Below are positions 36,858-51,063 of a stretch of DNA of 57,784 bases, piece after piece. The stretch comes from Corallococcus praedator (GTDB lineage: Bacteria; Myxococcota; Myxococcia; Myxococcales; Myxococcaceae), in the NCBI RefSeq assembly GCF_003612125.1, contig NZ_RAWI01000012.1, forward strand, positions 1 through 57,784. Reading direction: 5' to 3'. The position numbers and the translations under genes were made by a program. The notes beneath the pieces are model-generated. The model was not told the origin of the DNA. It did not search any database and was given only the letters and a program-made list of their open reading frames with translations. Position 1 is the stretch's first letter. Each line of letters begins with the position of its first letter.

Positions 36858-38201
36858 TCATGGGACGTACCGCTCGGCGGTGTTGAGCACCACGCCGCCG
36901 TCAGAGCCTCCAATCATGAGCACACTCCCCGATTCCAGCCACGTCGCGGTGTGCGAGACGCGCGCCGATGCCATGGGGGCGATAAGCTCCCAGCCGCCAT
37001 CTCGCCGGAATATCTCCGCGGAGGCACGCGGCTTCGCGTAGGGGCTGGAATACCCGCCGGCAATCAGCACCTCGCCCGAGGGTAGAGCGGTCGCCGTGTG
37101 CAGGAAGCGGGCTTCCCTCATGTCTGCCTGGGGCGTCCAGGAATCGCTGCTCGGGTCGAAGAGCTCCACCGTCTTGAGGACCGTTCCAGGTGAGCCTTCG
37201 AGGGAGCCGGTCACCAGGATTCCTCCCAGGGGCAGCAGCGTCGAGGCGTGCCCGTTGCGTCCATCCTCCATCCGCTCCCCAAGGAGTCGCCAGCCTGCAT
37301 CTGGCTGCTTCGCGTCGTAGACCTCGGCGGTCGTCTCCGCTCCATAGCGATTGAAGCCTCCGATGGCCAACACCACCCCCCCGTCCAGCAGGGTGAGTGT
37401 CAGCACATTGCGTTCAACTTTCATGTTCCCAGCATTCGTCCAGGAGTCGTCGTTCGGGTCATAGATCGCGGCGGTGTCCAGCCCATCGAGCTCCGAGTTC
37501 CCGCCACCCGCCACCAGCACCTTCCGTGAGGGCAGCAAGATGGCGGCATGGTTGGCGCGTGCTCCAAGTGGGATGGGACTGGCAGGAGTCCATTGATTCG
37601 CATCCACGTTGTAGATTTCAGCACTGCTCAGCGCTTCGCCTGCGGGACCCCGCCCCCCGACCACCAATACGTTGCCATTCTCCAACAGGGTGGCGGTGTG
37701 GGCCACGCGAGCCGTCCCGAGGTTCGGCCCGGGACGCCAACTGTTGGCTGAGGCGGTGTAGAGCTCCGTGGTGTTCGTCGGGCTGTCCCCTGGGTTGTTA
37801 CCCGTGCTGCTTCCGCCAACGACGAGCACCCGGCCGTCTTGCAGCTCCGTGGCCGTATGACCTGTGCGCCGTGTCTGCATCGATGTCACGGATTTCCACC
37901 CCGGCGGTTCGCGCCCGCCATCCGGAAGCCCTGCGTCCGCGCCGCCGTCCCGGCCGCTCTCACCGTCCAGTCCACCGTCCCCGCCATCCAGTCCACCATC
38001 CTCGCCGCCCGGCACACCTCCAGCGTCACCTCCATCCAGGATGCCATTGCCGTCAGGGCCCCCATCCGGCGCCTCAACCGGGCAGGCGCCAGGTCTACCG
38101 CGACAGAATCGGTCCACCGCGTCGTCGACGTCGAGGCACGCAGCGACATGGACGCCGAGCACCAGCACTCCAAGGCTTGTCAAACGAAGCAGGGCCTTCA
38201 T
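36858..38201 (-). CDS. Seven-repeat Kelch lipoprotein
   Basis: This is a 447-residue exported protein. A signal peptide ends HVAAC, a likely lipobox. A low-complexity Asp/Gly linker (about residues 45-100) leads to seven Kelch repeats, recognisable by HTAT-x-L...VLVVGG, for example HTATLLENGNVLVVGG and HTATALPSGEVLIAGG. They should form a complete seven-bladed propeller facing the periplasm or the outside. GGGAGG is upstream of the ATG. The ATG overlaps the stop of the TPR-like gene as ATGA, so it is the last cistron of the kinase-sigma gene set. The propeller probably binds a ligand or partner protein. Confidence 0.85.
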   Translation of the reverse strand: MKALLRLTSLGVLVLGVHVAACLDVDDAVDRFCRGRPGACPVEAPDGGPDGNGILDGGDAGGVPGGEDGGLDGGDGGLDGESGRDGGADAGLPDGGREPPGWKSVTSMQTRRTGHTATELQDGRVLVVGGSSTGNNPGDSPTNTTELYTASANSWRPGPNLGTARVAHTATLLENGNVLVVGGRGPAGEALSSAEIYNVDANQWTPASPIPLGARANHAAILLPSRKVLVAGGGNSELDGLDTAAIYDPNDDSWTNAGNMKVERNVLTLTLLDGGVVLAIGGFNRYGAETTAEVYDAKQPDAGWRLLGERMEDGRNGHASTLLPLGGILVTGSLEGSPGTVLKTVELFDPSSDSWTPQADMREARFLHTATALPSGEVLIAGGYSSPYAKPRASAEIFRRDGGWELIAPMASARVSHTATWLESGSVLMIGGSDGGVVLNTAERYVP

Positions 38202-39085
38202 GGCCACCTCCCAGACACGAACACGGACGTCCCATCCAGCCCGAATCGCAGGGGCGCCGGCTCCTTCGGCTCTCCCCCCAGCAGGTACATTCCCGTGGCG
38301 GTGCCCAGCCCCACCAGGCCTCCCACCAGCATCCCCACGGAGACTGTCTGCATCCGGCGCACGCTGTTGGCCACGTTCCTGGCATCGGCCCCCGAGGGGA
38401 TGTCCGACGCCATGTCAGCCAGCCTCGACTTCTTCCCCTCCGCCAATCCCCAGACGACGCCCGCCGCGGCGACGAGGGCCCCGCCCGTCACGGCGGGGAT
38501 GATTGCTCGGTCTCGCAATGATGCGTGCGAGCCGGACACCTCCGACACCGGAGAGGATGAAGACTCCGGGGTTCCCGGGACCACCGCGAGGAGCGGCTGA
38601 GCCGGCGGTGTCCCTGAGGGGAGCTCCAGCCTCAGGGGCTCACGGTCTCCTCGCGCGGCCAGCTCGCTCAGGACCCCCTGGCGCACCGCTTCGAAGTGCT
38701 GCTTCACCTTGGGTGAGACAGTCATCGGCAACTTCGCGTCGGGATTCAAGAAGAGGGCGTCCTTGAAGGCGACTTCGGCGCCGCTCAACCTTCCGCTCAA
38801 CTCCGCCAGGATGACGCCCTCATAGAGCGACAGCACCACCTGATCCTCGGGCCCCTTCGACAGACTCCTTCCGTGGACGACCTGCTCGAGTGCACGCTCG
38901 TACTCGAGGTCTTCGAACAACTGGTGGACGAACACCACGCAGCGGTGCACATCGGGGGAGACGTCGCCTCGGGCTCCCAGGGGGAGGAGGGTGAGCCCGA
39001 GGACCAGGACCCAGACACAGGTGTCATGTCGCGACAGGACGCTCGACAAAACCGCTCTTGCATTGCCGTAGATAGAAGGAGTCAT
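38198..39085 (-). CDS. TPR-like membrane protein in the kinase-sigma cluster
   Basis: This 295-residue protein starts with a signal-like hydrophobic segment (VWVLVLGLTLLPLGARG). A helical TPR-like region follows (FEDLEYERALEQVVHG; LYEGVILAELSGRLSGAEVAF; DALFLNPDAKLPMTVSPKV), then a polar linker and two C-terminal membrane helices (IIPAVTGGALVAAAGVVWGL; VSVGMLVGGLVGLGTATGMYL). GAGAGG lies five nt before ATG 39085. It is 31 nt after the coiled-coil gene and overlaps the Kelch gene. No family name is secure; it may be an envelope scaffold for the Kelch lipoprotein. Confidence 0.7.
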   Translation of the reverse strand: MTPSIYGNARAVLSSVLSRHDTCVWVLVLGLTLLPLGARGDVSPDVHRCVVFVHQLFEDLEYERALEQVVHGRSLSKGPEDQVVLSLYEGVILAELSGRLSGAEVAFKDALFLNPDAKLPMTVSPKVKQHFEAVRQGVLSELAARGDREPLRLELPSGTPPAQPLLAVVPGTPESSSSPVSEVSGSHASLRDRAIIPAVTGGALVAAAGVVWGLAEGKKSRLADMASDIPSGADARNVANSVRRMQTVSVGMLVGGLVGLGTATGMYLLGGEPKEPAPLRFGLDGTSVFVSGRWP

Positions 39086-39116
39086 CACGCCCTCTCGCGC
39101 ATGCGCCTGACTGTGT

Positions 39117-39935
39117 CTACGGCTCCGACGTCACCGGCGATGGGGAGCTGCCATCCAGCATGGGCGGGACGGGGTTGCCGCGGGCGACGTCGGGAGGCAC
39201 CACCCCTGTGTTGGTTCCCTGCTGCTGGTGGATCCAGGTGTCGGCGGACGGGTCCGTGGACGTCTGCCCGAAGGGTCCAGGGGAGAGGTCCTTCGTGTAC
39301 TTCGCGTCGACGGGAATCCCAGGCGCTTCGCCCGTCCCGGCCGTCTGGATGACTTCCTGCGGCGGCGGGGGCGTCAAGCCCAGCAGCTTCTCCAGCTTTG
39401 CCTTTCGACTCGTGCCCTCGAAGGCCGAGTCGAGCTCGTTCTTCGTCGGCTTCACCTTGTCGATGTCCTTCTGGCTGTAGGGCGGCGTCTTGCTTTCCGC
39501 GACGGCCGCCGCGTTCGCCTTGAGCATGGCCTCCTCGGCGCCCTTCGCGGCCAGGGCGGCCTTCTCCTCCGCGTTCTGGAGTTTTTGCGCCGCGGCCCGG
39601 GACGCATCGGTGGCTTCCTTGAGTTTCTTCTCCGCGTCGGCGAGGGCTTCCTTCGACTTCTTCGCCTCCGCGGGTGTCTGACCCGGCCGCTCCGCGGCCT
39701 TGCGTGCGTCGGTGACGGCCTTCTCCGCCGAGGACTTCTGCCGGCGCGCGCCATCCGCGTCGCGCTTGGCCTGCGTCAGGTTGTCGCGGGCCTCGGTCGC
39801 CGCCTTGCGCCGGGCCTCGGCGGCGAGCCGCGCCGCCTCCGCCTTCTGCCGGGCCGCCTCCGCGCGGCGCTGTGCCTCGGCGGGATCGACTTTCGGAGCA
39901 CCACCAGAACCACCGACCGCATTCACTGAGCCCAT
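39117..39935 (-). CDS. Ala-rich coiled-coil protein with conserved N-terminal module
   Basis: This 272-residue protein has no signal peptide. Residues 1-60 (MGSVNAVGGSGGAPKVDP, then EAQRRAEAARQKAEAARL) closely match the start of the protein encoded at 49477. Residues about 20-160 are Ala/Lys/Glu-rich heptads predicted to form a long coiled coil. The rest is Pro/Thr-rich with TPPPPQEVIQTAG and no known domain. AGAGGAGAGG precedes the ATG, and the leader contains a perfect 19-bp hairpin. It follows the sigma-like gene and is probably part of the same transcript or of its regulon. The shared module may be a localisation or secretion tag; that is inference. Confidence 0.72.
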   Translation of the reverse strand: MGSVNAVGGSGGAPKVDPAEAQRRAEAARQKAEAARLAAEARRKAATEARDNLTQAKRDADGARRQKSSAEKAVTDARKAAERPGQTPAEAKKSKEALADAEKKLKEATDASRAAAQKLQNAEEKAALAAKGAEEAMLKANAAAVAESKTPPYSQKDIDKVKPTKNELDSAFEGTSRKAKLEKLLGLTPPPPQEVIQTAGTGEAPGIPVDAKYTKDLSPGPFGQTSTDPSADTWIHQQQGTNTGVVPPDVARGNPVPPMLDGSSPSPVTSEP

Positions 39936-40110: not shown

Positions 40111-41004
40111 TCAGCCCAGCAATCCAATGAGACTGATATCCAGTCGGCTGTTGACCAGTCCCAGGAGGCTCTCCAGTGTGAGCTGGTCCTGCTTCAGCCG
40201 GGGCGTGAGCTCCATGCGAACGCGCTCGAGCAGTTGCTCGCGGGCATCGGCGAGCCTGCGAGCGACGCCGGAGCGTGAGCCTCCATACATGAGCGTCAGC
40301 CGGTCCATAGTGAACCCATGGAAATGGTGCAAGCGCAGCAGGGTTCGTTCCTGCTCGGAGATCATCGCCACTGCTTTTCGGAGCGACTCGACGAGGAGCT
40401 GGCGCGCGTCTTCGCGCAGCAGCGCGTACTCGGGGTCGCTCGGGGCCAGCAGCCGCGCGAGTTCCTCGGGAGGCTCCGCGACGAGCTGATGGCGCTCGTC
40501 CCGGCCCACCAGTTCCCCGGCGATGCGCGCGGCGATGATGCCCACCCACGTGAGGAGGGGCCCTCGGCCTCCATAGGTCGCAATCCTCGGTGGCGCGCTG
40601 GCGCTGCCCACCAGCAGCCGCTCGCGCAGCACCTGCAGCACTTCGTCCACCATGCTGGGTGACACCCTCCCGAGCCGGGAGGGGATGTGCCGGAGGATGT
40701 CCTGCTCGAAGGCGCGGAGGGCCGCGGGCGCTCCGGTGGCGCAGGCGCACGCGAGGTACAGGTCGGCACCGTTGAGGATGCGAAGCGCCTCCGAGACCTT
40801 GCCCGCGGGCAGGTGCCGGGCCAGGTGTCGCACGAAGGTCTCTGCCGGGAGTTGCAACGTAGGCCACCCGGTCCGGGCCGCCTCGACGTGCTCGTGCAGC
40901 AGCACCTCCAGTCGCTCCACGGCCTCCAGCTCCGCGCGCTGCTCCCGTGGCAGGTGCTCCCGCAGCAGCGCCGCCAGTGCGTCTGTCTTCCGTTCCTCGC
41001 TCAT
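40111..41004 (-). CDS. Sigma-70-family (ECF-like) regulator coupled to a Ser/Thr kinase
   Basis: This 297-residue protein has about 75 N-terminal residues of unknown fold, then sigma-like segments: DLYLACACATG, DEVLQVLRERLLV and RIATYGGRGPLLTWVGIIAARIA (regions 2.1-2.4), and EQERTLLRLHHFHGFTMDRL with GGSRSGVARRLADAREQL (region 4). A short tail ends SRLDISLIGLLG. The ATG overlaps the kinase stop as ATGA, so the two are translated together. The kinase has a zinc anti-sigma-like N-terminal motif, which makes a kinase-controlled sigma factor the natural reading. Its C-terminal tail reappears as a remnant at 49013-49112. Confidence 0.75.
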   Translation of the reverse strand: MSEERKTDALAALLREHLPREQRAELEAVERLEVLLHEHVEAARTGWPTLQLPAETFVRHLARHLPAGKVSEALRILNGADLYLACACATGAPAALRAFEQDILRHIPSRLGRVSPSMVDEVLQVLRERLLVGSASAPPRIATYGGRGPLLTWVGIIAARIAGELVGRDERHQLVAEPPEELARLLAPSDPEYALLREDARQLLVESLRKAVAMISEQERTLLRLHHFHGFTMDRLTLMYGGSRSGVARRLADAREQLLERVRMELTPRLKQDQLTLESLLGLVNSRLDISLIGLLG

Positions 41005-44000
41005 TGCTTCCCCTCGCTCCGCTGCCAGGCCAGCACCGTCTGGAGCTCCTGTCGGCCTCGGACTCCCACGGGCTCCAGCCGCTTCCGGGCCTCCTCGGCC
41101 ATCGCGAGCGCCCGCGCCCGGTCCTGGGCGGCGCGCGTTTCCAGGAGCGCCCGGGCCAACAGGAAGGCGGTCTTGCCGGCGACCTTCGGGTCCTTGGCCT
41201 CGCCCCAACGGGTCTGGATGCGCCGGGCGCGCTCGAGCAGGGGGACGGCTTCCGCCACCGCGCCCAGCGCCAGATGTGCCTCCCCAGCACAGGCCAGGGC
41301 GCTGGCACCGTCCTCGGACTCCTCGCCATCGGCCGTCTCCGCGACCTTCCGCGCACGCTCGCAGTACGCGAGCGCCTCCTTCGGGGTGTGGGTCGCCAGG
41401 GCCAGCTCGGCCAGGGGCAGCAGCACGGGCACCGTCTTTCCTCCCTCCGGGCCATCGTCCTTCTCCAGCCGCGTCAGCGCGTCCATCAGGTCGCGCCGTG
41501 CCTCGGGGTAGCGGCCCGCCTTCAGGTGCACCTGGCCTCGGACGGTCAGCGGTAGGGCGGCGCGCGGCGTGTCCGGGCCCAGTGAGCGCTGGACGCGCTC
41601 CAGGGCCTCGGTGGCGAAGGCCAGCGCCTCGGCCCCCTGGCCCGCTTCGCGGGCGAGGACCGCCTGCTCCGAGAGCGCGAAGATGACGGTGATGTGGTCG
41701 GGGCCCCGGGCCCGCTCGAAGATGGCGCGTGCCCGCTCGACCTGGGACCGCGCCTCCTCCAGCCGGCCGTCGACGCGCGAGACCCCGGCCAGGTTCAGCA
41801 GCACCCTCCCCAGAGGGGTGGTCTCCGGGCTGGAGGACGCCTCCTGGAGGGCCAGGGCCCTGCGCCAGGCGCTGAGGGCCTCGGCGTGCCGTCCCATCTT
41901 CAGCGACGCAGTGGCGACCCGGTTGTAGGACGTCACGAGGGCCGGGTTGTCGGGGCCCAGCAGGCGCTCATGCAGTTCCAGGGCCTGGCGATGGAGCTTC
42001 AGCGAATCCTCATAGCGGCCCTGGCCGTAGCGGATGCGTCCCAACTGGTGGAGGAAGTTGGGCATGCGGAGGCTGTCCGGGCCATTCCTCCTGCGCGAGA
42101 ACTCCAGACCCTGGAGCGCCTCCTGCTCGGCCTCGGCGAGCTGGCCGTGCGACTCTCGCAGTGAAGACAGCCGCATGTGGAGGTCCGTCGTAATGTCCGG
42201 GAAGCGCTCCCGCCCCAGCCGCTCGATGGCGGCCCGGGCGTGCCGGATGAGCTTCTCCGCTTCGTCGGGGCGGGACTGCTCTTCGCCCACCGCCCGGATG
42301 AGCTCCAGCCAGGCCCGTGCCACCGTCTCGTCGTCACGCGCGGCCTCGCCCGCCCACAGGGCCTGGTAGAGGAACGCCTCCGCTTCCTTCGGTTTGTTGA
42401 GGCCCCCGAGGAACACGCCGTGGGCCAGGAACACCTCCGCCTCCAGCGGCTTGTAGTCGAGCCCCTTCAGCTCCTCGATGAGGGCTGACGTCACCGCGAG
42501 GCCGTCGGTGAACCGGTGCGACAGGCGGTGGGCGCGGGCCTGCGCCAGCTTGTGCCGTGCCGCATCCACCTGGGCGCGGAGGCTTTCGGGCGGCTGCGGT
42601 CGGGCGGAGAGGCCGGGCGCGTCCCGGCAGCTGGCGAGCCCTTCGAGAGAGGTGGTCAGCGGGTGCGCGTTCTGCACCGTCTGCACATCCGCTTTTTCCA
42701 GCACCTCGGTCACGGCGGCGAGCTGCCAGAGCCGCGCGTCGAGGCACGCGGCCGTCTGCCAGGCGCCGTCCGCGGTGTCACTGCCCGCGGCCATGCAGGC
42801 CTCGGTGCGAAGCGTCCGCCACTGGGCGGCGTAGGCGTCCAGCACCGACGCGAGCTGCTCCCAGGCCTGGGAGGCGTAGGGCGCGCCCGTGGAGAGGAAG
42901 GCCGTGCGGATCCGCTCGCGTCGCGCGGGGCTCCAGGCCGCCGCGAGTTTCTCCACTTCCTGCTCGCAGTGACTGCCCTCCCGATTCGCCGCTCCGTAGG
43001 CCACCAGGGTGCCCAGGATTCCGGCCACGGCGGCGGTGGCCATCATCCGCGCAAGCCACCGGATGGGCCGAGGGGTGAGCTCCGCCAGGAGGGACTCCAT
43101 GGAGGGAAAGCGCTCCTCGGGGCTGGAACTGAGTCCCCGGAGGAGCGCGCGCCGGACGCGGGCTGGAAGCTTCACCTCGTACTTCGGGGGGCTGATGCTG
43201 CCTTGCCGCGCGGCCTGGGCCAGTTGCTTCAGCGTCTCGCCCTGGAAGGGGCGCACGCCGAAGAGGGCCTCGTGGAGCGCGACGCAGAAGCTGAACGCGT
43301 CGGAGCGAGCGTCCGCGTGCTGGCCGCGCATGAGCTCCGGGGCCATGTAGGCGGGCGTGCCCAGAAGCTGGCCCGTCCGGGTGAGGTGTCTCACGGAGGC
43401 GACGGGGGCCGTGTCGTGCTCTTGGAGGGGAGCGCCCTCGTTCGGGTGGAGGGGCCCAGCGATGCCGAAGTCCGTCACGAAGACGCGGCCGTGCTTGCCC
43501 AGGAGGGTGTTGGCGGGCTTGAAGTCGCGGTGCACGAGGCCTTCGGCGTGAGCGGCGGCGAGGCCCTTGCCGGCTTCGAGGAAGACGCGGAGCACCTCCT
43601 TCCAGGAACGAGGCTGCTTCATCCACTCCGCCAGGGTGGTGCCCTCCACCAGCTCCATGGCGAGGAAGACCCCGTCTCCATGGGTGCCCACGTCGTAGAG
43701 GGTGACGACATTGGGGTGGGAGAGTCGGGCCAGCGCCTGTGCCTCGCGCAGCAGCCGCTGCTGCAGCTCTTCGCGTTGGCGTCCCTCGGGGCGAAGCATC
43801 TTGAGGGCCACCCGGCGTCCCAACTCTGGGTCATCCGCCGCGAAGACGACGCCCATCGCACCGGAGCCGAGGGGTTCTCGCACCACGTAGCGGGAGACCC
43901 GGGTGCCAGGCCGCAGTGGCTGGGAAGGCGCCGGCACGAGGACCGTTGGAGCGTCGGGCAGGACCTGAGCGCCATCCCCCGCCGCCAGGACCCGCCGACA

Positions 44001-44171
44001 GTCCGCACAGCTCTCCACATGTGCGAGGACGGAGCCCCGGTCCGTTTCGGAGAGCAGCCCGGCAAGAAAGTCAGTCAGCGTCACTTCCTGGGGGCAGGTC
44101 CGCGGGCGTAAGGACTCCGTGACGCGTTCCGGTTCGCCAGACATGGCCGATGTGGGTGCTCCGTCGCCCAT
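41001..44171 (-). CDS. Membrane Ser/Thr protein kinase with zinc-finger N-terminus and TPR C-terminus (kinase 1)
   Basis: This is a 1056-residue protein. Residues 26-58 carry C26 and H51-x3-C55-x2-C58, the pattern of zinc anti-sigma (zf-HC2) domains. The PknB-type kinase domain (about 94-365) is complete: LGSGAMGVV, K124 in VALKML, HRDFKPAN with D216, DFG with D234, and APE. One transmembrane helix follows at about 373-394. The remaining 660 residues are helical TPR/tetratricopeptide-like repeats (LHRQALELHERLLGPDNPAL). GAGG lies a few nt before the ATG. It is the first gene of kinase-sigma-coiled-coil-TPR-Kelch. The kinase is expected to be active, with the zinc motif holding or recruiting the sigma-like partner. 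Confidence 0.92.
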   Translation of the reverse strand: MGDGAPTSAMSGEPERVTESLRPRTCPQEVTLTDFLAGLLSETDRGSVLAHVESCADCRRVLAAGDGAQVLPDAPTVLVPAPSQPLRPGTRVSRYVVREPLGSGAMGVVFAADDPELGRRVALKMLRPEGRQREELQQRLLREAQALARLSHPNVVTLYDVGTHGDGVFLAMELVEGTTLAEWMKQPRSWKEVLRVFLEAGKGLAAAHAEGLVHRDFKPANTLLGKHGRVFVTDFGIAGPLHPNEGAPLQEHDTAPVASVRHLTRTGQLLGTPAYMAPELMRGQHADARSDAFSFCVALHEALFGVRPFQGETLKQLAQAARQGSISPPKYEVKLPARVRRALLRGLSSSPEERFPSMESLLAELTPRPIRWLARMMATAAVAGILGTLVAYGAANREGSHCEQEVEKLAAAWSPARRERIRTAFLSTGAPYASQAWEQLASVLDAYAAQWRTLRTEACMAAGSDTADGAWQTAACLDARLWQLAAVTEVLEKADVQTVQNAHPLTTSLEGLASCRDAPGLSARPQPPESLRAQVDAARHKLAQARAHRLSHRFTDGLAVTSALIEELKGLDYKPLEAEVFLAHGVFLGGLNKPKEAEAFLYQALWAGEAARDDETVARAWLELIRAVGEEQSRPDEAEKLIRHARAAIERLGRERFPDITTDLHMRLSSLRESHGQLAEAEQEALQGLEFSRRRNGPDSLRMPNFLHQLGRIRYGQGRYEDSLKLHRQALELHERLLGPDNPALVTSYNRVATASLKMGRHAEALSAWRRALALQEASSSPETTPLGRVLLNLAGVSRVDGRLEEARSQVERARAIFERARGPDHITVIFALSEQAVLAREAGQGAEALAFATEALERVQRSLGPDTPRAALPLTVRGQVHLKAGRYPEARRDLMDALTRLEKDDGPEGGKTVPVLLPLAELALATHTPKEALAYCERARKVAETADGEESEDGASALACAGEAHLALGAVAEAVPLLERARRIQTRWGEAKDPKVAGKTAFLLARALLETRAAQDRARALAMAEEARKRLEPVGVRGRQELQTVLAWQRSEGKQ

Positions 44172-44851: not shown

Positions 44852-47800
44852 TCATCGTTGCCCCATGCGTCGCTGCCAGGCCAGTATCTTCTGAAGTTCA
44901 GGCTTACCGCGGGCTCCCGCTGACTCCATTCCCGCTCGCGCTTCTTCGGCCAGCGTGAGCGCGCGCGCCCGGTCAGGGGAGGTGTGTGTGTCAACAAGCG
45001 CTCGGGCCAGCAAAAATGAGGTCTTCGCGGCTTTCTCGGGGAACATGGCGTCAGGTTGCTGGCGCTGGAGGTTCCGGGCGCGCTCAAGCATCGGCACCGC
45101 TTTGCTGGCTCCACCCAGGGCGAGGTGGGCTTCTCCGGCGCAGGCCAAGGCGCTTGCGACGTCCACGGATTGCGAGGCCTGCACCTCACCGAGGAGATTG
45201 CGCGCACGCTCGCAATACGCAAGAGCCTCTTTGGGAGCTTGGGTGACCAGGGCCAGCTCCGCCAGGGGAATGAGTATCGCTGCGGTGCCGCCGTTTTTGG
45301 GGCCCAACTCTCTCTCCAGCCGACTCAAGGCCTCCTGCAGGTCGCGTCGAGCCGCGACATGTCGGCCCGCGCGCAGGTGTACCCGGGCGCGGACCTTCAG
45401 CGGCCACGCGGCATAACTGGTGGCGGGACCGAATGCCCGCTGGGCATGCTCCACGGCCTGTGTGGAAAGACGGAGTGCCTCGTCGTTCCGGCCGGCCTCC
45501 AGGGAAATGGCTGCTTGCTCTCGAAGTACCATGACGATGTTGAGGTTGTCGGGCCCCAGAGCACTCTCGAAGATCACGCGCGACCGCTCGAGCATGGACA
45601 ACGCTTCCTCCCACTGGTCGTCGAAACGGAGCGGGATGGCGAGGTGCTGGAGCATGCGTGCGAGCTCAGGGGTCTCCGGGGTGTCCGCCGCATCGATGAT
45701 GGCTAGGGCCCGATGCCAAGCGTCGATGGCATCGGCCCTCCGCCCCAGGCTCATGTATGTCGAGGCGAGGCTGTCGTAGGAACGAACGAGGAGGGGGTGG
45801 TCGGAGCCCAGCAGACGCTTGCGCTGCTCGAGGGCCTGGCGATGGAGCTCCATCGCCTCCGCGAGACGCCCCTGATTTAATCGAATCCATCCGAGTCGAT
45901 GGAGGAGGGTGGCGATGCGCAGGCCTTCCGGCCCCTGATTCTTGCGCACGAAATTCAAGCCTTGAATGATGTCAGCCTCCGCCTGGGCATCCTTCAGCTG
46001 AATCATCCGCGCCGACCCCACGCGGAGGTACAGGTCCGCCGTGATGTCCGGGAAGCGCCCTCGCCCCAGTCGCTCCACGGCTGCTTGGGCGTGGCGGATA
46101 AGCTTCTCCACTTCCTCGTTACGGCGCGGATGGGCATCGGCCACCTCTGAGACGAGGAGAAGCAATGCACGAGCCGCCGACTCGTCGTCACGTCCGGCCT
46201 CGGCGGCCCAGAGTGCCTGGTAGAGGAATGTCTCTGCTTCCTTCCCTCTTTCGAGCAGTTGGTGGAGCTCGCCATGAACCACGAGCACCTCTGCCTCCAG
46301 TGGCCGGTAATCAAGGCCTCGGAGTTCCTGAATGAGGGCTTCTGTCACGCCAAGCCCCTGGTGCAACCGGCGCGCGGCGAGGTCTGCTTGGGCCTGGGCC
46401 AACTTGCGCCGGACTTCGTCCACGCGGGGGCGGAGGATTTCCGGTGGCTGCGGACGGCTCGAGAGCCCGGGCGTGTCCCGGCAGCCGGTGAGCCCTTCAA
46501 GGGAGGCCGTCAATTGGTGCGCGTTCTTGACTGTCTCCGCATCTGCCTTTTCCAGCACCTCGGTGACGGCAGCGAGTTGCCAGAGCCGCGCGTCGAGGCA
46601 CGCGGCCGTCTGCCAGGCTTTATCTCCGGTGTCACTGCCCGCGGCCAAGCAGGCCTCGGTGCGAAGCGTCCGCCACTGAGTCGCATGGGTGTCCAGCACC
46701 GACGCGAGCTGCTCCCAGGCGGGCGCGGCGTAGGACGCGCCCGTGGACAGGAAGGCCGCGCGGATCCGTTCGCGTCGCGCGGGGCTCCAGGCCGCCGCGA
46801 GTTTCTCCACTTCCTGCTCGCAGTGGCTCCCCTCCTGGTGCGTCGCTCCGTAGGCCGCGAGGGTGCCCAGGACTCCAGCCACGGTTGCGGTGGCCATCAT
46901 CCGCGCAAGCCACCGGATGGGCCGGGGGGTTAGCGCTGCCAGGAGGGATTCCATGGAGGGGAAGCGCTCCTCGGGGCTGGAGCGGAGCCCCCGGAGGAGC
47001 GCGCGCTGGACATGGGCTGGAATCTTCACCTCGTACTTCGGGGGGCTGATGCTGCCTTGCCGCGCGGCCTGAGCCAGGTCCTTCAGCGTCTCGCCCTGGA
47101 AGGGGCGCGCGCCAAAGAGGGCCTCGTGGAGTGCCACACAGAAGCTGAACGCGTCGGAGCGGGCATCCGCGCGCTGGCCCCGAATGAGCTCCGGAGCCAT
47201 GTAGGCGGGCGTGCCCAGAAGCTGGCCCGTCCGGGTGAGGTGTCTCATGGAGGCGACCGGGGCCTTGTCGTGCTCCTGGAGCGGAGCGCCCTCCTCCTGG
47301 TGGAGCGGCCCGGCGATGCCGAAGTCCGTCACGAAGACGCGGCCGTGCTTGCCCAGGAGGGTGTTGGCGGGCTTGAAGTCGCGGTGCACCAGCCCCGCGG
47401 CGTGCGCGGCGGCCAGGCCCTTGCCGGCTTCGAGGAAGACGCGGAGCACGTCCTTCCAGGGGCGCGGCTGCTTCATCCACTCCGCCAGGGTGGTGCCCTC
47501 CACCAGCTCCATGGCGAGGAAGACACCATCTCCGTGGGTGCCCACGTCGTAGAGGGTGACGACATTGGGGTGGGAGAGTCGGGCGAGCGCCTGTGCCTCG
47601 CGCAGCAGTCGCTGCCGCAGCTCCTCGCGTTGGCGTCCCTCGGGACGCAGCATCTTGAGGGCCACCCGGCGGCCGAGCTCCAGGTCATCCGCCGCGTAGA
47701 CGACGCCCATGGCTCCGGAGCCAAGGCGCTCTCGCACCACATAGCGGGAGACCCTGGCGCCAGGCACTAGCAGCAGGGGCAAAGGCTCCTTCGCAACGAC

Positions 47801-48028
47801 CTCCGAAGCACTGGACAGGGCCTCGGCGCCCGCTCCCGCCACCAGGACCCACCGACAGTCCGCACAGCTTTCCAGGTGTGCCAGGACGGAGCCCCGAGTC
47901 TCTTCGGAGAGCAGCCCGGCAAGAAAATCCGTCAGCGTCGCTTCCTGGGGACATGACGGCATGCGTGAGGACTCTGCGCCGCGTTCCGGTTCGCCGGACA
48001 TGGCGGATGCGGGTATTCGTTCGCTCAT
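44852..48028 (-). CDS. Membrane Ser/Thr protein kinase paralogue (kinase 2)
   Basis: This 1058-residue protein is collinear with kinase 1. It has the zinc motif at identical positions (C26, H51, C55, C58), a complete kinase domain (LGSGAMGVVYAADD, VALKML, HRDFKPAN, DFG, APE), a single membrane helix and a TPR-rich C-terminal part. Identity is very high through the kinase and membrane segments, even at the DNA level, and falls in the repeat region, suggesting different ligands or partners. No sigma gene follows; only an IS5 remnant does. The upstream DNA is a copy of the module before kinase 1. It arose by tandem duplication. Confidence 0.92.
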   Translation of the reverse strand: MSERIPASAMSGEPERGAESSRMPSCPQEATLTDFLAGLLSEETRGSVLAHLESCADCRWVLVAGAGAEALSSASEVVAKEPLPLLLVPGARVSRYVVRERLGSGAMGVVYAADDLELGRRVALKMLRPEGRQREELRQRLLREAQALARLSHPNVVTLYDVGTHGDGVFLAMELVEGTTLAEWMKQPRPWKDVLRVFLEAGKGLAAAHAAGLVHRDFKPANTLLGKHGRVFVTDFGIAGPLHQEEGAPLQEHDKAPVASMRHLTRTGQLLGTPAYMAPELIRGQRADARSDAFSFCVALHEALFGARPFQGETLKDLAQAARQGSISPPKYEVKIPAHVQRALLRGLRSSPEERFPSMESLLAALTPRPIRWLARMMATATVAGVLGTLAAYGATHQEGSHCEQEVEKLAAAWSPARRERIRAAFLSTGASYAAPAWEQLASVLDTHATQWRTLRTEACLAAGSDTGDKAWQTAACLDARLWQLAAVTEVLEKADAETVKNAHQLTASLEGLTGCRDTPGLSSRPQPPEILRPRVDEVRRKLAQAQADLAARRLHQGLGVTEALIQELRGLDYRPLEAEVLVVHGELHQLLERGKEAETFLYQALWAAEAGRDDESAARALLLLVSEVADAHPRRNEEVEKLIRHAQAAVERLGRGRFPDITADLYLRVGSARMIQLKDAQAEADIIQGLNFVRKNQGPEGLRIATLLHRLGWIRLNQGRLAEAMELHRQALEQRKRLLGSDHPLLVRSYDSLASTYMSLGRRADAIDAWHRALAIIDAADTPETPELARMLQHLAIPLRFDDQWEEALSMLERSRVIFESALGPDNLNIVMVLREQAAISLEAGRNDEALRLSTQAVEHAQRAFGPATSYAAWPLKVRARVHLRAGRHVAARRDLQEALSRLERELGPKNGGTAAILIPLAELALVTQAPKEALAYCERARNLLGEVQASQSVDVASALACAGEAHLALGGASKAVPMLERARNLQRQQPDAMFPEKAAKTSFLLARALVDTHTSPDRARALTLAEEARAGMESAGARGKPELQKILAWQRRMGQR

Positions 48029-48452: not shown

Positions 48453-48697
48453 ATGTCGAAGCAGGTGGAGAAGCCGGATTGGGTGCGGGTCGCGGATGAG
48501 TTCGAGGCCAGCGGCCAGACGCAGCAGGAGTTCGCGCTTCAGCGAGGCGTGAGACTGAGCACGTTGCAGTCGTGGGTGTACCGGAGTCGGCGGGCCAAGG
48601 CGGCGCGAGGTAAGCCCGTGCGCCTGTTGGCAGTGCAAGTTGCGAGGGCGCCCGCCGCGGAGGAGCCGGTGTTGGAGGTGGTGAGCGCAAGCGGAGC
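48453..48697 (+). mobile_element. IS66-type TnpA remnant
   Basis: This starts with an ATG and encodes MSKQVEKPDWVRVADEFEAS then GQTQQEFALQRGVRLSTLQS and VYRSRRAKAARGKP, typical of the small TnpA protein of IS66 elements. It is cut near codon 82, and the frame runs directly into IS3 sequence, giving a chimeric 176-codon frame. TnpB and TnpC are absent. Confidence 0.65.
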
Positions 48698-48699
48698 GG

Positions 48700-48983
48700 G
48701 TGCGCTTCGCGGTAGAGTGGCTGTCCGACAACGGCCCCGTCTACACCGCCAGGGACACCCGCGACTTCGGTCTCAGCCTCGGCCTGCGAGTGTGCACCAC
48801 GCCCTCCTACTCGCCCCAGCGCAATGGCATGGCCGAGTCCTTTACCTCAACGAACTGCCCTCGGCCGCTCACGTCCTCGCCCAGTTGCCCTCCTGGTTCG
48901 GCGACTACAACCGCTGCCACCCGCATCGCGGGCTGAAGATGAAGTCACCCCGCGAGTTCCGTACTGCTAACTCTCAACCCTGA
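48700..48983 (+). mobile_element. IS3-family transposase remnant, C-terminal part
   Basis: One frame gives VEWLSDNGPVYTARDTRDF, TTPSYSPQRNGMAESF; after an indel another frame gives LNELPSAAHVLAQLPSWF and NRCHPHRGLKMKSPREF. Together they are the integrase core end of an IS3-type OrfB. It is inactive because of the frameshift and missing parts. Confidence 0.72.
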
Positions 48984-49012: not shown

Positions 49013-49112
49013 AGCTCGCACCCTGCTGAAGCAGGACCCGCTCGTACTGGAGGGCCTCATGGGACTGGTCAGCAGCCGACTGGACATCAGCCTCCTGGGA
49101 TTGCTGGACTGA
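49013..49112 (+). pseudogene. Remnant of a second sigma-like gene (C-terminal tail)
   Basis: The plus strand reads LLKQDPLVLEGLMGLVSSRL then DISLLGLLD and a stop. This matches the last 27 residues of the sigma-like protein at 40111-41004. Everything upstream is replaced by IS DNA. It has the same orientation relative to the gene at 49477 as the intact sigma gene has to the coiled-coil gene. Confidence 0.7.
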
Positions 49113-49164: not shown

Positions 49165-49285
49165 TGCCGACTTCCTGCCTCCATTCCAGGGCGACGACGT
49201 CGCCATCGGTGCCTACGTCGTAGAGCATGACGGTCTTGGGGTAAGAGCGCTGAGCCAGCGTCTCCACTGGATCAGCCAGCGTCGT
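49165..49285 (-). pseudogene. Remnant of a third Ser/Thr kinase gene
   Basis: The minus strand reads ETLAQRSYPKTVMLYDVGTD then GDVVALEW, matching ALARLSHPNVVTLYDVGTHG of the two intact kinases. The sequence is interrupted on both sides. It is preceded on the minus strand by a copy of the kinase leader module (49286-49412). Confidence 0.65.
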
Positions 49286-49476: not shown

Positions 49477-51063
49477 ATGGGTGCAGTGAAGGCGGTTGGA
49501 AGCTCCGGAGCGGCAAAAGTAGACCCTACCGAAGCAAAGCGCCGCGCAGAGGCGGCCCAGCAGGAGGCAGCGCGGCTCGCGGCCGAGGCCAAGCGCAAGG
49601 CGGCGGCTCGGGACAACATGCCGCAGACCAAGCGCGCCGCGGAGGCCCGGGACGCCTACGCGGACGCACCGAAGAAGTCGCCGGTCGAGCTCAACCCGGG
49701 CGCCAGGAACACCGTCACGGCCCGCGGCGCCGTGCAGGGCAGCGGAGCCCCGTCCTCGCTCGGTGGCGCCCAGGCGAAGCAGAAGCAGACCCAGGACCTG
49801 GCGAAGCAGGGCCGGCTCGGCGAGGCCCTGGACGTGGCCCTCAACTCCGAGGGCGACAGCGTGAAGCTCAAGCTGAGCGCCAACGGCAAGGTCAAGGCGG
49901 GCCCCGTGAAGGTCGGTGGCGAGCTTGGCAGTGAGGTCGAGGTGAAGCGGGGGCCCAACGGTACCTACGAAGTCACCGCTCTCGACGAGGGGAAGCTCAC
50001 CGCCGCGCCGAGCACGAAGGTCCCCATCGTGGATGGCTCCGCGGAACTCGGGGCCGGCGTCTCGCCGAAGTACGAGTTCAAGTCCAAGGAGGACGCCCTG
50101 CGCGGACTGGGCATCATCGCGACCGCCAGCAACGAGCCCGCGCTGCGCGCCAAGGTCGGCGACAAGGTCTCCGGCTTCCTGGCGGGCGCCGCCAAGGCGG
50201 TGGGCGCTGACGGCCTCGGCAAGTTCTTCGACAAGGCGGGTGACGCCAACCGGAAGCTGGACTCGTACGTCACGGACGAGCAGAAGTTCCTCGGCGACCA
50301 CCTGAAGGGCTTCTCGGTGAAGGGCACCCTGGCCGGGAAGCTCGCGGGGGAACTGCCGCTGCCCAACGTCCCGCTCGAGCTCGAGTTGAAGGGACAGCTC
50401 GAGGCGAAGGTCGACATCGTGTTCGGCAAGAACGGCCAGAAGCCCACCATCACCGTGGAGCAGTCCGGGCAGTTCGAGGAGAAGGGCCTCGTCGGCAGCG
50501 GCACCGTCTTCACGAAGGAAGGCGAGGGCAAGGGCTCCATCAAGCTCGCCCTGCAGAGCAAGTTCGAGGTCGAAGGGAAGCTGGACCTGGAGGCGGCGCT
50601 GCAGGGCCGCCCCTCCAAGTTCAAGGGCACCCTCGTGGACTCCACGCTCTCCGCCGAGGTGGGCGTCTCCAGCAAGAGCCGCGTGGGCCTGGCCACGCCG
50701 GGAGGCACGCAGACGGAGGCCAGCCTCAAGGGCGACACCGGCCTGGCCGGCAAGCTGAAGCTCACGGCGAAGACGGCGGACGTCACCGCCGCGCTGGGGG
50801 AGGACCACAAGGCGTTCGAGGCCCTGGCCAAGGGTGACTTCGGGTCGCTGGCGAAGAACCTGGTGGCGAAGGTGCCCGTCACCGTGGAGGGCGAGCTCGC
50901 GGCGACGGCCGGCTTCACCGGGGAGCTGTCGCTGGACGCGGGGCTCGCCAGCGGCGGTGTCTCCATTGAGGGCTCCCTGAGCGACGTGTTCCTCAAGGAG
51001 AAGCAGGACCTGAAGCGGGGCGGCGAGCTCCCCGCCTGGCTCCAGAAGCAGCTCCACGCCTGA
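49477..51063 (+). CDS. Beta-rich protein of unknown function with the shared N-terminal module
   Basis: This is a 528-residue protein without a signal peptide. Residues 1-60 (MGAVKAVGSSGAAKVDP, then EAKRRAEAAQQEAARLAAEA) match the start of the coiled-coil protein at 39117. Residues about 115-520 alternate short Lys/Gly-rich strands (KVGGELGSEVEVKRG, GTLAGKLAGELPLPN, VTVEGELAATAGFTGELS), suggesting an elongated beta structure. Cysteine appears to be absent. AGAGGAGA precedes the ATG, like its relative. No known family was recognised. Location next to degraded kinase and sigma copies suggests it was once part of a second kinase-sigma locus. It may be an exported structural or effector protein. 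Confidence 0.7.
   Translation: MGAVKAVGSSGAAKVDPTEAKRRAEAAQQEAARLAAEAKRKAAARDNMPQTKRAAEARDAYADAPKKSPVELNPGARNTVTARGAVQGSGAPSSLGGAQAKQKQTQDLAKQGRLGEALDVALNSEGDSVKLKLSANGKVKAGPVKVGGELGSEVEVKRGPNGTYEVTALDEGKLTAAPSTKVPIVDGSAELGAGVSPKYEFKSKEDALRGLGIIATASNEPALRAKVGDKVSGFLAGAAKAVGADGLGKFFDKAGDANRKLDSYVTDEQKFLGDHLKGFSVKGTLAGKLAGELPLPNVPLELELKGQLEAKVDIVFGKNGQKPTITVEQSGQFEEKGLVGSGTVFTKEGEGKGSIKLALQSKFEVEGKLDLEAALQGRPSKFKGTLVDSTLSAEVGVSSKSRVGLATPGGTQTEASLKGDTGLAGKLKLTAKTADVTAALGEDHKAFEALAKGDFGSLAKNLVAKVPVTVEGELAATAGFTGELSLDAGLASGGVSIEGSLSDVFLKEKQDLKRGGELPAWLQKQLHA

Follow-up and report, generated by a model that had tools for sequence, protein, structure and literature searches.

The stretch of Corallococcus praedator DNA analysed here (57,784 nucleotides, positions 1 to 57,784 of the forward strand of contig NZ_RAWI01000012.1, assembly GCF_003612125.1; hereafter the window) encodes a Ser/Thr kinase with a zinc anti-sigma motif ahead of its kinase domain (kinase 1, P0001) and, overlapping its stop codon, a sigma factor (P0002) of the Myxococcales family gmx1. 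Two ways of controlling bacterial sigma factors are known, retention by an anti-sigma protein and switching by a kinase. The pairing of zinc-motif kinases with gmx1 sigma factors reaches far beyond this locus and is near-exclusive and old in the genomes examined. With somewhat more confidence than doubt, we read the two genes as a one-receptor sigma switch, in which the zinc domain would hold the sigma factor and signal-driven kinase activity would change the hold.

The kinase-sigma pair of C. praedator

The first-pass annotation, made from the letters of the window alone, had noted C26, H51, C55 and C58 on the N-terminal side of the kinase domain in kinase 1 and in its tandem paralogue kinase 2 (P0003; 70% identity to P0001). 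All four residues precede the kinase domain in both proteins, and the domain containing them exceeds the gathering score of Pfam zf-HC2 (PF13490; 22.2 bits) with 25.3 bits in P0001 and 28.4 bits in P0003. The four-base ATGA overlap of kinase and sigma genes was confirmed (Table 1), and the product of the second gene, until then only sigma-70-like, is a member of the curated sigma-70 subfamily TIGR03001 ('RNA polymerase sigma-70 factor, Myxococcales family 1'; 312 bits, cut-off 154.6, NCBIfam). A further in-frame ATG lies upstream of P0001 at 44369.

P0001 and P0003 each contain a Pkinase domain and many TPR matches (Pfam). With its Lys, HRD and DFG motifs P0001 is a Hanks-type Ser/Thr kinase; residues K124, H214, D216 and D234-F235-G236 are invariant among 39 aligned partner kinases, and the best Foldseek rows for the kinase fold of its AlphaFold2 model are PknB and PknA. 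The hydrophobic helix that follows lies under the hydropathy threshold in P0001 and over it in many relatives. The model spans this stretch with a long helix of low confidence (residues 370-412), and its TPR superhelix is confident. Right after the hydrophobic helix four more cysteines (402, 459, 476 and 515) are invariant in the 39-sequence alignment; they would fit disulfides outside the cytoplasm, the side on which the presumed membrane topology of kinase 1 would place the TPR tail. Counted from the zinc motif, partner kinases extend over approximately 350 (some clipped by the ends of the stretches) to more than 1300 residues, and 30 divergently placed long ones show no hydrophobic peak at the position of the membrane helix. 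Hence the sensor part varies, and the zinc and kinase domains are retained.

Table 1 Features of the kinase-sigma locus in the window
Feature	Position	Strand	Remarks
Kinase 1 (P0001, 1056 aa from the ATG of the first-pass annotation)	41001..44171	-	zf-HC2, Hanks Ser/Thr kinase, hydrophobic helix, TPR tail
Zinc motif of kinase 1, C26-C58 (C-x24-H-x3-C-x2-C)	43998..44096	-	
Kinase domain of kinase 1, residues ~93-366	43074..43895	-	HRD, DFG and Lys present
Probable single membrane helix of kinase 1, residues ~371-393	42993..43061	-	hydropathy and AlphaFold2
TPR superhelix of kinase 1, residues ~530-1056	41004..42584	-	probably extracytoplasmic
ATGA, sigma ATG start overlapping kinase 1 TGA stop	41001..41004	-	
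Sigma factor P0002 (297 aa)	40111..41004	-	Sig-70_gmx1, TIGR03001; regions 2 and 4, N- and C-terminal extensions
Kinase 2 (P0003, 1058 aa), tandem paralogue of kinase 1	44852..48028	-	zinc motif 47855-47953; without a sigma gene of its own
Coiled-coil-rich 272-aa protein	39117..39935	-	candidate co-regulated gene; no Pfam match
296-aa protein	38198..39088	-	syntenic downstream gene
Kelch-repeat protein	36858..38207	-	syntenic downstream gene

Conservation of the pair in Myxococcota

TIGR03001 exceeded its cut-off in 74 of 146 sampled Myxococcota genomes and in none of 14 control genomes. Sigma surroundings were taken from 20 regions of the C. praedator genome (4) and its genus (16), from the 80 best of 132 loci that a sequence search located in named genomes, and from 100 regions hand-picked among the listed TIGR03001 matches. 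Together with the window they comprise 201 sigma records above 200 bits, of which 180 are distinct after 21 identical cores were dropped. This sample follows similarity to P0002 or a high family score and is not a random draw of gmx1 sigmas, and the kinases and sigmas at the loci were identified with profiles built from the same loci.

A kinase domain lies within 3 kb of 162 of the 180 distinct sigmas; like class-I anti-sigma domains (ASDIs), the zinc domain is thus encoded beside its sigma. The motif [C/H]-x24-H-x3-C-x2-C precedes the kinase domain in 156 of these 162 kinases, with Cys as first ligand in 155 and His in one, and all 156 retain HRD (or HGD) and DFG (or DLG), so that zinc site and kinase motifs are both intact within one protein throughout. 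Cysteine occurs at spacing 24 in 155/162 kinases and at any other tested spacing (10-39) in seven at most. Among the exceptions, two kinases run off a contig end (L045, L083), one has a spacing of 23 (L131), and in two cases the nearest kinase may not be the partner (L102, L129). The first-pass annotation had named a lack of conservation of the pair across myxobacteria among the findings that would count against its proposal; these counts show the pair conserved through the phylum. A close pair is also encoded in Myxococcus xanthus strain AM003 (L058).

The kinase gene lies upstream on the same strand for 72 sigmas, upstream and divergent for 50, downstream on the same strand for 39 and downstream on the opposite strand for one; the remaining 18 have none within 3 kb. 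On a tree of the 180 sigmas, calculated with a quick method that left many joins unsure, the five arrangement labels call for no fewer than 22 changes, against a mean of 89.7 after shuffling. For the three main arrangements the numbers of changes are 7, 12 and 9, and well-supported branches account for a forced 4, 6 and 4 of these. The pair has therefore been kept through repeated rearrangement. Where the kinase gene runs into the sigma gene on the same strand, 55 of 70 junctions are ATGA and three more are four-base GTGA overlaps. That kinase and sigma are merely co-inherited neighbours without mutual regulation is in our view highly improbable: a few sigmas and a few kinases do stand alone, but the pair persists in three main gene orders through those label changes, its zinc and catalytic residues are jointly intact, and ATGA coupling prevails at the junctions. 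Pairs from a record titled 'Comamonas sp. KCTC 72670' (L086, L133) group with Myxococcaceae in the tree, and the record name is probably mislabelled.

In four genomes that are complete as single contigs (G118, G085, G124 and G109), 3, 5, 7 and 11 gmx1 sigmas above 200 bits were counted, 26 in total, with a broken one in G118 excluded. Coordinate matching placed a zinc-motif kinase within approximately 4 kb of 24 of the 26, the unpaired ones being located in G085 at 9081545 (L210) and in G118 at 250776 (L342). In the opposite direction, surroundings were read for 60 of the 130 zinc-profile matches in these genomes, the other 70 being weaker; 28 of the 60 are kinases, and 24 of these adjoin a gmx1 sigma.

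The C. praedator genome contains five gmx1 sigmas and one short fragment, and all five adjoin a zinc-motif kinase. Profile searches of this genome yielded 110 Pkinase matches, 109 of them above the cut-off and some proteins contributing more than one, and, with 150 of 257 candidates scored, at least 27 zf-HC2 matches (21 above the cut-off). At least seven of the zf-HC2 matches immediately precede a kinase, and five of the seven are the sigma partners, one of which (on C748) scores below the zf-HC2 cut-off. The other two are kinase 2 and a kinase near the end of contig C881, beside which the stretch read holds no sigma gene. By comparison, the zinc spacing was found in none of 40 other kinases of this genome, and even H-x3-C-x2-C is absent from the 200 residues ahead of their kinase domains. 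These controls were hand-picked from the Pkinase list, mostly from its upper part, off the contigs with gmx1 sigmas and excluding the motif-bearing C881 kinase and kinase 2, and five of the 40 stretches are clipped upstream by a contig end. Fisher's exact test for 156/162 against 0/40 gives p of about 3e-36; with related rows and a control that is not a random draw, this value excludes chance only.

A motif search within five called genes of the kinase-less sigmas detected no separate zinc anti-sigma gene directly beside the sigma, L114 being left out of this check since its sigma is absent from the called genes; at L049 a motif-bearing frame lies two called genes off. Eight gmx1-like sigmas without an adjoining zinc kinase (L101, L108, L109, L115, L121, L122, L126 and L128) belong to one clade, and their region 2.2 differs. 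By eye, each of the eight is followed by a gene resembling an export gate of the type III secretion or flagellar kind.

The zinc domain

The Pfam zf-HC2 model matches 38 of the 39 aligned partner kinases (E ≤ 0.01), and the four ligands C, H, C and C are invariant in these 39 kinases and in 41 aligned zinc domains, both alignments being made of sequences selected for having the motif. A profile of the 41 domains, searched against all PDB sequences, returned nine rows at E up to 10, the six best of which are anti-sigma chains. RslA of complex 3hug ranks first (2.6e-7), followed by DdvA (7.1e-6), a CHAT protein sharing that stretch (1.9e-4), two rows of ChrR (1.5e-3 and 1.7e-3) and RsiW (0.018). 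The kinases thus combine the Hx3Cx2C motif across helices 2 and 3 with a sequence match to known ASDIs, and the first-pass claim of an anti-sigma pattern now extends beyond spacing to the solved zinc anti-sigma domains themselves. In the AlphaFold2 model of kinase 1, built on the 39-sequence alignment, helices of middling confidence (residues 29-36, 42-54 and 56-66) are followed by a disordered linker (66-83; predicted local distance difference test score under 50), a part that could fold on binding.

Alternatively, the domain might sense redox state or metal, or serve as a dimer contact, and in this way regulate the kinase itself without touching the sigma, on which the kinase would then act via other surfaces. 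A Cys as first ligand in 155 of 156 domains permits a thiol switch, and only a short disordered linker separates zinc domain and kinase. Nonetheless, the zinc domain is absent from all 40 control kinases without a gmx1 sigma, its solved relatives bind sigmas, and the occurrence of His as first ligand means that a thiol switch via this residue is not obligatory; we regard this explanation as rather improbable. His takes this place in two partner kinases, L330 from G109 and L040 from C. praedator, as it presumably does in ChrR.

The sigma factor

All 45 aligned relatives of P0002 match TIGR03001 (E ≤ 1e-10). In Pfam P0002 has sub-threshold matches only, to sigma region 4 and to models of extracytoplasmic function (ECF) sigmas, and a profile of the family retrieves ECF and FliA-type sigmas from the PDB (best 7.8e-11). 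Residues ~79-176 and ~193-282 of the P0002 model align to sigma regions 2 and 4 and are flanked by helical N- and C-terminal extensions. The whole model obtained weak E-values in Foldseek (best 8.4e-3). With VIA-align, where rows within 1 of the top Z were treated as tied and rows under Z 8 were not counted as evidence, the top row is region 4 of sigma-L in the RslA complex 3hug (Z 9.4, 2.4 Å, 77/77). The same complex provides the top PDB row for the zinc profile; with the leading VIA-align rows tied, this shared match is no more than suggestive.

The register of the region 2.2 DAED motif was taken from the alignment of the sigma profile with PDB sequences. In kinase-linked sigmas the motif mostly reads x-V-D-E; its last residue (position 121) is acidic in 77/77 and position 120 in 68/77. 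On this sequence evidence a gmx1 sigma may be capable of binding RNA polymerase unaided and require restraint. ECF43 sigmas, according to passages of the published accounts, usually have an uncharged region 2.2 and a phosphorylated Thr (PMC8999054, PMC8103513, PMC13147305). The gmx1 sigmas are, like them, encoded beside a Hanks kinase, but the kinase-linked ones lack the combination of an uncharged region 2.2 and a conserved Thr. Membership of the P0002 family in ECF43 was accordingly rejected, and the published ECF43 switch does not carry over directly.

In this light we weighed whether the zinc domain serves as a docking site only, recruiting the sigma for activation by phosphorylation as in ECF43, with no inhibitor role. 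The catalytic motifs kept in all 156 zinc-motif partners fit such a role, as does the model, in which just three of the four anti-sigma helices are seen. Published ECF43 pairs use activating phosphorylation, and PknS is described with an N-terminal segment of 83 residues predicted as helical and a periplasmic TPR part (PMC13147305). Against docking alone stand the absence of the ECF43 region 2.2 signature, given the acidic positions 120 and 121, and of any Ser/Thr both conserved and specific for the kinase link beyond usual region 4 positions, and we consider it unlikely, though not lightly dismissed. A comparison of 77 linked with 13 unlinked sigmas revealed no convincing phospho-acceptor of this kind: S279, S286 and S291 are conserved whether or not a kinase is linked. 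Positions 232 and 245, mostly Ser/Thr in linked and mostly Asn/Val in unlinked sigmas, were discarded as candidates and read as usual region 4 helix caps.

Proposed mechanism

Zinc and kinase motifs are kept together and, among the genomes examined, occur almost only beside gmx1 sigmas; the most economical interpretation has the zinc domain binding the sigma and the kinase modifying the result. Inhibition with kinase-controlled release is favoured because the sigma looks competent for RNA polymerase, because the solved relatives of the zinc domain are anti-sigma factors, and because the gene of the holder is translated first in the ATGA arrangement. In the proposed one-receptor switch, the N-terminal part of the kinase, with helices 1-3, would act as a minimal zinc anti-sigma domain of class I. 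It would bind the gmx1 sigma of its own pair, most likely via region 4 of the sigma, and keep it at the membrane. Translational coupling would ensure that the holder is made first and the sigma second. The C-terminal TPR part would sense a signal across the membrane and activate the kinase, which would alter the hold by phosphorylating the sigma or else the zinc domain or linker within its own chain; the released sigma would then transcribe its target genes. The contact between zinc domain and sigma, the inhibition, the target of phosphorylation, the topology at the membrane and the direction of control are all conjectural.

Several observations weigh against this switch. The AlphaFold2 model shows no helix 4, the element with which class-I anti-sigma factors contact region 2 of the sigma. 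Eighteen of the 180 sigmas have no kinase within 3 kb, although nine of them lie within 2.6 kb of a stretch end, where the absence of a kinase is unsure. In one partner (L229) Tyr replaces the first Cys of CxxC, and in the complete genomes four zinc kinases have no adjoining sigma (L287, L319, L326 and L335, the last with its zinc motif approximately 200 residues further from the kinase domain). One negative charge is retained in the motif by 15.8% of ECF43 sigmas, as stated in a passage of PMC13147305; an acidic region 2.2 alone therefore does not exclude activating phosphorylation. Finally, mutual information and Gaussian direct-coupling analysis of 156 pairs did not favour zinc-domain columns over kinase columns: the top 20 include one by both scores (3.0 expected), the top 50 show no enrichment, the top 100 include 15 and 20 (14.9 expected), and a slight excess appears in the top 200 (33 and 38 against 29.8). 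With an effective number of 76 this outcome is uninformative rather than negative.

As a wider generalization, these kinases may constitute single-chain receptors uniting membrane sensor, anti-sigma domain and kinase, present throughout the phylum in multiple copies, as several paralogous pairs within a genome and with varying sensors, the zinc domain sequestering the gmx1 sigma and the attached kinase governing its release; we regard this as tentative, just short of an even chance.

Neighbouring genes and possible module remnants

In close relatives the sigma gene is followed by the genes for the 296-aa and the Kelch-repeat protein in the same order as in the window, and at L041, L060 and L063 a gene for the coiled-coil-rich 272-aa protein again precedes them; the loci compared include duplicate records of the same genome. 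Judged by this gene order, all three are candidates for an operon or regulon of the sigma.

Upstream of kinase 2 the window contains pieces resembling the module. A fragment at 49023-49112 (+), on the strand opposite to the sigma gene, matches sigma residues 269-296 with 75% identity and is followed by an open reading frame of 528 aa (49477-51063, +) whose first ~110 residues resemble the downstream gene of the sigma; together they may represent a copy of the module that was inverted and in part lost. Beside the fragment, a short stretch at 49199-49260 (-) looks like kinase domain by eye. Between kinase 2 and the fragment, positions 48453-48983 (+) match the integrase core rve_3 (27.8 bits, cut-off 26.5), a probable transposase remnant. 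Among the loci examined for fusions, a single frame, from Myxococcus eversor (L087:7320-8324), has both kinase and sigma domains, a piece of kinase being in frame with sigma region 4. It was rejected as a natural fusion of zinc kinase and sigma, the zinc domain being absent, and is read as a likely deletion remnant of a pair.

Comparison with known systems

Kinase-linked sigma groups and zinc anti-sigma factors are already known. The searched open-access titles and beginnings of abstracts hold no description of gmx1 sigmas or of a kinase-fused zinc anti-sigma domain, and the main ECF classification (Casas-Pastor et al., NAR 2021) may already include the context. If the proposed switch is true, two control modes would be merged in one sigma-paired protein that carries both modules and is conserved in the phylum. 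It would also offer a hypothesis for several of the Ser/Thr kinases of Myxococcaceae, of which a typical genome has ~100 according to part of a published account (PMC7694542). With a close pair in the laboratory-tractable M. xanthus, the mechanism is directly testable.

The first-pass annotation had likened the pair to EcfP/PknT, and the comparison holds in part: the sigma adjoins a kinase, but the usual ECF43 phospho-switch signature is absent from gmx1 sigmas. As in the ECF43 systems EcfP/PknT of Vibrio parahaemolyticus and EcfK/PknS of Xanthomonas citri, the sigma gene adjoins that of a membrane Hanks kinase, and PknS shares an N-terminal segment predicted as helical and a periplasmic TPR part; the main text of its description contains neither 'zinc' nor 'zf-HC2' (PMC13147305). 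Most ECF43 sigmas have lost the acidic region 2.2 and are phosphorylated there; in contrast, the gmx1 sigmas keep acidic residues, belong to TIGR03001 and carry N- and C-terminal extensions. With the class-I zinc anti-sigma factors RslA, ChrR and RsiW the kinases share the zinc motif, helices 1-3, the profile match and a gene beside the sigma gene. Here, however, the domain is fused to a motif-intact kinase followed by an extended TPR section, and the model shows no fourth helix. DdvA (PDB: 8rlz, 8rot and 8rw5), which we take to be from M. xanthus, likewise harbours its anti-sigma domain within a larger two-domain protein, although its second domain is CHAT and not a kinase. The proposed release of sigmas from an anti-sigma domain by a Ser/Thr kinase has a parallel in PknB systems, as outlined in a section of PMC8999054; there kinase and anti-sigma factor are separate proteins, whereas here they form one chain.

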